Below are positions 41,494 through 43,287 of a stretch of 64,000 nucleotides of DNA, in pieces. The notes beneath the pieces were generated by a model. The model saw only the letters and a program-made list of their open reading frames with translations, was not told the DNA's origin and did no database searches. The DNA comes from Burkholderiaceae bacterium (GTDB lineage Bacteria > Pseudomonadota > Gammaproteobacteria > Burkholderiales > Burkholderiaceae). The position numbers and the translations under genes were made by a program. The stretch lies in NCBI GenBank assembly GCA_947447945.1, contig CANFLR010000005.1, forward strand, positions 1 through 64,000. Direction: 5' to 3'. Each line of letters opens with the position of its first letter. The stretch's first letter is position 1.

Positions 41494-42030
41494 CTATAGA
41501 TTTTGTAAAACCGATTTAGCTAAAAGCAGGTCTTGCCAAAGCAGGGCTTTCTCTTTGGGCCTCCCAATCAAATAGGCTAAATCAAAAGATGCAATCAGCG
41601 GAATATCTTCTGCAAATTCATCGCTAACCGACAAAATTGTCTCCCTCAGTGATGAAAGATCATCGCGCTCACCGCTGAGCTTTTGAGCAGCAGGCGCTCC
41701 AAATGCAAAGGCCACTCTCGATAAACCATTCTCACTAGATTCTTTTGGTAACGGGTCTCCTAGATTTTTCCATAACCAATCATTTGGAGATAGTCCTAGT
41801 GCGCGAATGATGCCCTGAAATAGTAAGTCAGCCTCACCTTGAGGAGTGTTACCAAAAAAATACCAAGTACCTTCACTAATCTTGATAGATGAGCTCTCAG
41901 CAAGATTTTCCTGAGCATTCGCATTAGCAGAGAAAACTTCTGAAGATGTACTTATAAGTGTTGCATCACGTGAGGCCCACTCTGTGATCCCCATTTCCTT
42001 TAAGAAAGCTGTGTTGGATGTGGTGTTCAT
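41494..42030 (-). CDS. uracil-DNA-glycosylase-fold / DNA polymerase III psi (HolD)-like protein
   Basis: 178 aa, no cysteines; N-terminal 'FLKEMGITEWASRDA' resembles the HolD N-terminal motif; C-terminal 'LIASFDLAYLIGRPKEKALLWQDLLLA' resembles the family-4 UDG C-terminal block; ATGA overlap with rimI. Confidence 0.6.
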   Translation of the reverse strand: MNTTSNTAFLKEMGITEWASRDATLISTSSEVFSANANAQENLAESSSIKISEGTWYFFGNTPQGEADLLFQGIIRALGLSPNDWLWKNLGDPLPKESSENGLSRVAFAFGAPAAQKLSGERDDLSSLRETILSVSDEFAEDIPLIASFDLAYLIGRPKEKALLWQDLLLAKSVLQNL

Positions 42031-42560
42031 GTCGATAGCTTAATCGATTTTGCCATGACCGTTGCATCTTCACGCCTGCCAGAGGTGCCATCAACCGGAT
42101 AGTAATTTTTACGCGTCCCAATCTGGTCATATCCTAGGCTTCTATAGAGATTTAGAGCTAATTCATTAGATGGTCTGACCTCAAGAATAATACGCGGCAT
42201 CTGTTGTTGCGCAGCTACCACTTCAATAGCGTGCATCATTCGCCGTGCAATACCTCTTCGCCGTAATTTTGGGGAGACGGTAATATTGAGTAAATGAAGC
42301 TCATCTACCGCTGGAAATAAAATACAGTAGGCCCATAAAACATGAGGGTCTAAATAAGTTCCTTTAATGGCCTGTGCAACCTGTGGACGAATGCAATATG
42401 CCCAATGACCAGCATTCAAAGAATCAGAGAAATTACCACGTGTCCAAGGATGGGGATGGGATGCGACTTCAATAGCTAGAACCTCTTCGAGGTCGGCGGA
42501 TTGCATTGGCAAAAAAGATAGCTCAGCATCTCCTGTTTCAGAATCCAGTAAGTTAGACAT
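42027..42560 (-). CDS. rimI: ribosomal protein S18 alanine N-acetyltransferase
   Basis: GNAT fold, 'RRRGIARRMMHA', 'LEVRPSNELALNLYRSLGY'. Confidence 0.92.
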   Translation of the reverse strand: MSNLLDSETGDAELSFLPMQSADLEEVLAIEVASHPHPWTRGNFSDSLNAGHWAYCIRPQVAQAIKGTYLDPHVLWAYCILFPAVDELHLLNITVSPKLRRRGIARRMMHAIEVVAAQQQMPRIILEVRPSNELALNLYRSLGYDQIGTRKNYYPVDGTSGRREDATVMAKSIKLST

Positions 42561-42564
42561 AAAA

Positions 42565-43287
42565 TTAATGAGCTACTTGTTTACGTTCTTGTGCTGTGAA
42601 TGCAACTTTATTACGGACATAAAGTGGCTCAAGCAGATGAATATCTTGCGCGAGACCTTTTGCCCAAGAAATTTGGCCGCAGGTGAGAATGCCAATGGCG
42701 CTAATGCCAATATCAGCATCGAGCTGATCTGCGGAAAATGGCTGCCCAGAATGACTTAATAAACGATTGCCGAATTCACCAATAGCATTTCCAGCGATAA
42801 ACTGTATACCATCCAACGGCACATCATCGGGCGAACTTACGCTTACATCACCCAGACGAACAGGCAGACCTAAGGCCGTTATTTGATAATGAGCCCAATA
42901 GACCTCATCCATTCGTGCATCCACTGCAACCATAAAACGAGATGGCTTAGCGGCAGAAAATTGTGGTTTCTGAACCAATTGCGCAGCAATTCCATCTAGG
43001 CTAACAATTGGCAACACAGGGAGATTGGCCGCAATGGCCAAACCTTGCACTACAGCAACACCGAGTCGCACACCAGTAAAAGCACCAGGGCCAACACCTA
43101 CAGCAATCGCATCAAGTGACTGTAAGTCTATTTGAGCCTTCTTCAATAGATTCTCAATCCAGGGGAGCAGATGTTGGCTTGCCCCTGCAGAGAGCTTTTC
43201 ATGCAGAAGCAAGGGCTCTTGATCATCAATTCCTAGTGCAACAGAACACCAGGCTGATGAGGAGTCAATAGCAAGTATGCAAGTCAA
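42565..43287 (-). CDS. tsaB: tRNA threonylcarbamoyladenosine biosynthesis protein TsaB
   Basis: 'LAIDSSSAWCSVAL', 'GVGPGAFTGVRLGV'. Confidence 0.93.
   Translation of the reverse strand: MTCILAIDSSSAWCSVALGIDDQEPLLLHEKLSAGASQHLLPWIENLLKKAQIDLQSLDAIAVGVGPGAFTGVRLGVAVVQGLAIAANLPVLPIVSLDGIAAQLVQKPQFSAAKPSRFMVAVDARMDEVYWAHYQITALGLPVRLGDVSVSSPDDVPLDGIQFIAGNAIGEFGNRLLSHSGQPFSADQLDADIGISAIGILTCGQISWAKGLAQDIHLLEPLYVRNKVAFTAQERKQVAH

Follow-up and report, generated by a model that had tools for sequence, protein, structure and literature searches.

Gene content of the locus

The window, by which we mean the whole 64,000-nt stretch of Burkholderiaceae DNA analyzed here, carries a short gene that overlaps rimI (Table 1); the host genus is probably Polynucleobacter, as inferred from kinship, named Burkholderiaceae relatives, and the small genome. 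The initial annotation had read this gene as a candidate psi subunit of DNA polymerase III, with a HolD-like N terminus fused to a degenerate uracil-DNA glycosylase (UDG) domain. The ORF and its junction with rimI were present as described, the translation contained no cysteine, and the three blocks quoted from the protein (FLKEMGITEWASRDA, LLFQGIIRALGLSPNDW, and LIASFDLAYLIGRPKEKALLWQDLLLA) were all found in the 178-aa product. The N terminus given there for E. coli HolD proved correct (HolD begins MTSRRDWQLQQLGITQWSLRRP). The stated linkage of holD to rimI in E. coli held insofar as both genes overlap; the gene order differs, being holD-rimI in E. coli and rimI-psi in the window. The ORF upstream of rimI is presumably a tsaB-like gene.

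Table 1. Coordinates of the putative psi gene, its parts, and its neighbors in the window
Feature	Coordinates	Strand	Basis or remark
Probable gene for the psi (HolD) subunit, of family-4 UDG descent, 178 aa	41494..42030	-	ATG start
N-terminal helix and LKEMGITEW peptide, residues 5-22	41965..42018	-	Homologue of the DnaX-collar-binding segment of E. coli psi; binding by the window peptide is inferred
Disordered linker, residues 23-54	41869..41964	-	pLDDT <50 at residues 20-47; dN/dS 0.35
Decayed UDG4 domain, presumed chi-binding body, residues 55-178	41497..41868	-	pLDDT, Foldseek, hmmsearch
GNTP, residues 60-63, remnant of UDG motif A (GEAPG)	41842..41853	-	Glu lost, loop after motif deleted; alignment
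FDLAYL, residues 149-154, remnant of UDG motif B (YHPAYL)	41569..41586	-	His to Asp; alignment
rimI, conserved neighbor	42027..42560	-	Stop overlaps psi start as ATGA
tsaB-like gene (presumed), upstream of rimI	42565..43287	-	ORF

HolD-like features of the protein

We compared the protein with the Pfam HolD profile (PF03603), a check that the initial annotation had proposed, and obtained a match over residues 6-88 (E = 1.2e-4, 22.7 bits; gathering cut-off 22.2 bits). The peptide LKEMGITEW, nearly invariant within the genus, fits the DnaX-binding pattern LxxxGIxxW and reached 96.5% against HolD peptides in hhalign. Together with the profile match, this supports the claim of a HolD-like N terminus. 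In a genome-wide six-frame search, PF03603 gave the same gene 15.7 bits, below the cut-off; because of this score and the narrow passage in the protein search, the PF03603 test is marginal on its own. The six-frame search returned no second PF03603 match in the genome (1.92-Mb assembly, 85% complete), so that within that assembly no independent holD, which had been named as a possible refutation, was found elsewhere. The sole PF03167 match in the genome by six-frame search of this assembly was an Ung-like protein. One HolC (chi) scored above its cut-off (E = 4.6e-29) and is encoded away from the psi gene.

Relationship of the domain to family-4 UDGs and to HolD

The domain part alone matched a beta-proteobacterial family-4 UDG (UDG4) HMM in hmmsearch with E = 4.5e-13, against 0.97 for the best of 800 shuffled sequences. 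A profile built from alignment A2 retrieved the UDG4 1ui0 from the PDB sequences (E 6.4e-18); phmmer with the single window protein found no match in the PDB. The NCBIfam model UDG_fam4 (TIGR00758) weakly matched residues 106-175 (E = 0.0063), and with 16.3 bits vs. a cut-off of 125.3 the protein fails the curated score for a family-4 UDG.

When the peptide was removed, hhalign of HolD against UDG4 gave 97.5% (gamma), 97.3% (beta), and 96.8% (outside the class). The domain of the window's genus alone gave 98.1% against beta UDG4 and 91% against HolD, and the controls (reversed profiles and RimI) remained below 1%. With only E. coli-like HolDs, the value fell to 87% over 31 columns. E. coli HolD alone gave no signal with the UDG4 HMMs, so the link between HolD and UDG4 runs via intermediates and folds. 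Sequences of a graded series supply such intermediates: L078/L079 and L082, with UDG motifs partly eroded, are followed by L073-L076, and the last group, with L068, was recovered by PF03603 and is also detected by UDG4 HMMs (best 3e-11). Judged from these profile comparisons, HolD and UDG4 are homologous.

The AlphaFold2 model, also proposed earlier as a check, has a short helix at the N terminus and a disordered linker before a confidently predicted domain (block means mostly >90). Foldseek matched it at probability 1.00 to 31 UDG4/UdgX chains of the PDB and equally to E. coli psi (1em8_B, 1em8_D, and 3sxu_B; TMt 0.51-0.60); beyond these, the next match was at most 0.33. Since seven rows of the input alignment were UDG4s, the model's likeness to UDG is not fully independent. 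No row was a HolD, and the likeness to psi is independent of the input. In a viral fold library, the model matched phage UDGs and DNA polymerases best. For an intact relative (L058), UDG4 was the best fold match (rmsd 1.2-1.9), and psi was absent among the best 50 matches listed.

Loss of catalytic residues under purifying selection

An intact UDG pocket, another possible refutation, was looked for and is gone: GNTP and FDLAYL stand in place of motifs A and B, the N-terminal part of the UDG domain and the motif A loop are shortened, and the four Fe-S cysteines of family-4 UDGs are absent from the protein. The same holds beyond the window. GE[AG]PG, the motif B His, and CxxC were lost in all 36 genus members examined, where the His column holds E, D, or T, and all three were present in each of 57 intact relatives. 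Loss of activity is inferred from these residues, and the window protein is predicted not to excise uracil. With the HMM and Foldseek matches, the lost motifs bear out the earlier description of the domain as a degenerate UDG4.

The short gene is nevertheless retained in 78 of 81 genomes of the genus, including 66/66 well-assembled ones, and it is under strong purifying selection. The dN/dS ratio was 0.106 overall; it was lowest for the peptide (∼0), followed by the domain (0.061), and highest for the linker (0.345). In a few genus members, an in-frame stop falls within the match.

We found three further groups of rimI-linked decayed copies, namely L169/L170 (TYDPNYLL), L171 (TFSPQYLL), and L174/L175 (Cys motif and GEAPG lost). 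Their catalytic losses are probably independent, although no tree was built. The L174/L175 gene bears a LHEALGLGPMWLK peptide, keeps HPARLLR, and is called by Pfam as UDG only; it may possibly be the psi of Neisseriaceae.

Architecture of rimI-linked UDG4 genes

Across the 199 genomes of the order, 193 had a UDG4 match; among the six without one are all three genomes that belong to the window's genus. The best matches to the window gene from other genera were complete family-4 UDGs, and within the same family most other genera have a full-length UDG4. In nearly all of these relatives in the order, rimI lies immediately upstream, and the UDG domain of the protein follows an N terminus of the form LxELGLxPLWxLR and a linker. 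Elsewhere in the class, YLxxMGIxxWxxR opens 29 of the 30 top UDG4s by pattern, the remaining one having MGITVAP, and rimI is mostly directly downstream, which is the E. coli order. At 80 named beta-proteobacterial loci (including Burkholderia, Paraburkholderia, Cupriavidus, Ralstonia, Pandoraea, Nitrosomonas, Thiobacillus, Methylobacillus, Hydrogenophaga, and Zoogloea), the peptide pattern was found in 76 and rimI in 79. The pattern was absent from all 17 UDG-family paralogues without rimI in genomes of the same family or class, and UDG4s outside the class (alpha-type) had neither the Trp peptide nor rimI. A chance motif was rejected, the pattern occurring in 6% of shuffled pre-UDG segments vs. 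76/80 real ones.

A HolD peptide, a linker, and a UDG4 domain are thus the usual architecture of rimI-linked genes across this order and class. Most of these genes have intact catalytic motifs, and the window gene is a decayed member of the set. The fusion of HolD and UDG parts seen by the initial annotation is real as an architecture and is not special to this gene. One intact UDG4 (L080) exceeds both Pfam cut-offs (PF03167, 136.8 bits; PF03603, 25.3 vs. 22.2). Over 274 genomes, we detected HolC in 234, UDG4 in 221, and HolD (PF03603) in 18; co-occurrence of UDG4 and HolC is confounded by descent.

A plasmid of Candidatus Vallotia tarda bears rimI and a UDG4 with a HolD-like peptide (L200:1551-2576). 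A symbiont-sized genome of 0.2 Mb has an intact-looking UDG4 with CxxC, GEGPG, and HPSYLLR and no rimI nearby (L173; G656:C1:78711-79163). Some genomes of the family (g405 and g406, e.g., G669 and G670) have no psi or UDG4 recognizable by profile. Outside the class, UDG4s L085-L112 have variant N termini (YLREIGVQTPVSL, FYLEAGVDxAL) which may represent an earlier version of the psi peptide, and HolC is present in at least Caulobacter among the organisms there.

Interpretation

We conclude, with a probability of about 0.86, that the window gene is a psi-peptide UDG4 orthologue at the conserved rimI locus whose glycosylase site has decayed and which is kept as a noncatalytic adaptor between DnaX and chi. 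In this arrangement, the protein would attach to the DnaX collar through its N-terminal peptide, and beyond the disordered linker its decayed UDG body would bind chi (HolC), which contacts SSB. Binding to DnaX and to chi is inferred only. What is shown directly is the homology of the gene to both HolD and UDG4, the fold, the synteny, the loss of catalytic residues, the purifying selection, and the presence of HolC. The retained psi role proposed at the outset is supported by the profile, fold, synteny, and selection tests, and none of the three refutations that the initial annotation had set out came true.

The domain might instead be a decayed UDG4 kept for repairing or binding DNA (in a UdgX-like manner or as a uracil sensor) with no relation to the clamp loader, its peptide binding another partner. 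UDG4 and UdgX are its closest matches in sequence and fold, and intact-site UDG4s dominate the family. We nevertheless think this improbable: the Fe-S cysteines, the motif A Glu, and the motif B His are gone genus-wide, conservation is highest in the peptide shared with E. coli psi, where it is known to bind the clamp loader (3GLI), and that peptide is confined to rimI-linked copies.

Still harder to uphold is the idea that HolD and UDG4 are unrelated folds and that a short HolD-like peptide joined a UDG4 by chance or convergence. The peptide is indeed short, and E. coli HolD alone lacks a significant UDG4 match, but the domain-only hhalign value of 97% contrasts with controls below 1%, one model retrieves both psi and UDG4 in Foldseek, and HolD and UDG4 are bridged by the graded intermediates (L078/L079, L082, and L073-L076) and by their common rimI linkage. 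That the gene is a pseudogene on its way out is scarcely tenable. The lost catalytic residues and the in-frame stops in a few genus members would fit, but not a dN/dS of 0.06 in the domain and ∼0 in the peptide or retention in every one of the 66 good genomes.

For the psi subunit that we prefer, the related bacteria offer a possible origin. Their enzyme, with its catalytic motifs intact, has the same presumed clamp-loader-binding tail, suggesting an origin of psi in a repair enzyme that rode on the replication machine. The simplest reading is that psi descends from a DnaX-tethered UDG4 and that catalysis was lost in the window's genus, in gammaproteobacterial HolD, and probably in three other lineages. 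We consider it likely, if well short of settled, that psi is an exapted UDG4 which in most Beta- and many Gammaproteobacteria is still catalytically complete and tethered to DnaX by the psi peptide, with uracil removal built into the replisome. E. coli HolD and the window gene would then be catalytically dead descendants that arose independently, as would, probably, those of three other beta-proteobacterial lineages. Because the intact relatives share the layout of peptide, linker, and body, an active UDG is predicted to sit on DnaX.

If true, this would explain the origin of psi and likewise its high variability, and it would account for HolC in many genomes without a recognized psi. It would predict a uracil-DNA glycosylase within the replisome of many proteobacteria and present a clear case of parallel conversion of enzyme to adaptor. 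HolC and HolD have been stated to occur only in gammaproteobacteria (PMC8092217, 2021), a restriction that would have to be revised.

Comparison with known systems

We found no paper linking HolD with UDG4 in the openly searchable literature; the initial annotation referred to an already noted UDG-like fold of psi, and an earlier mention in closed-access papers or a structure classification remains possible. In E. coli, psi attaches to the clamp-loader collar by its N-terminal peptide (3GLI; discussed in PMC11044049), and it joins chi, which links to SSB (PMC3331839). The window protein shows this layout, its contacts being inferred. The window protein resembles E. coli HolD (PF03603; 1EM8, 3SXU, and 3GLI) in its LxxxGIxxW peptide, rimI linkage, alpha/beta body, lack of a catalytic site, and the presence of HolC in the genome. 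It differs in length (178 vs. 137 aa), in a body that is still UDG4 by sequence, and in the order rimI-psi. The psi of Pseudomonas aeruginosa (PA4679, 278 aa), which could not be found by homology, is also large and divergent and needs an N-terminal stretch for function (PMC8879598).

With family-4 UDGs (TIGR00758; Thermus thermophilus 1UI0) and UdgX (6AIL), the protein shares the fold and the C-terminal K..xWxDLxLA; unlike them, it lacks the Fe-S cysteines, the motif A Glu, and the motif B His, and its domain N terminus and motif A loop are shortened. Its counterparts in Burkholderia, Cupriavidus, Ralstonia, Nitrosomonas, Thiobacillus, and other genera are rimI-linked UDG4s at the orthologous locus with the same N-terminal peptide and domain. 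In contrast to the window protein, they keep their catalytic motifs intact, and curated models score their body as UDG only.
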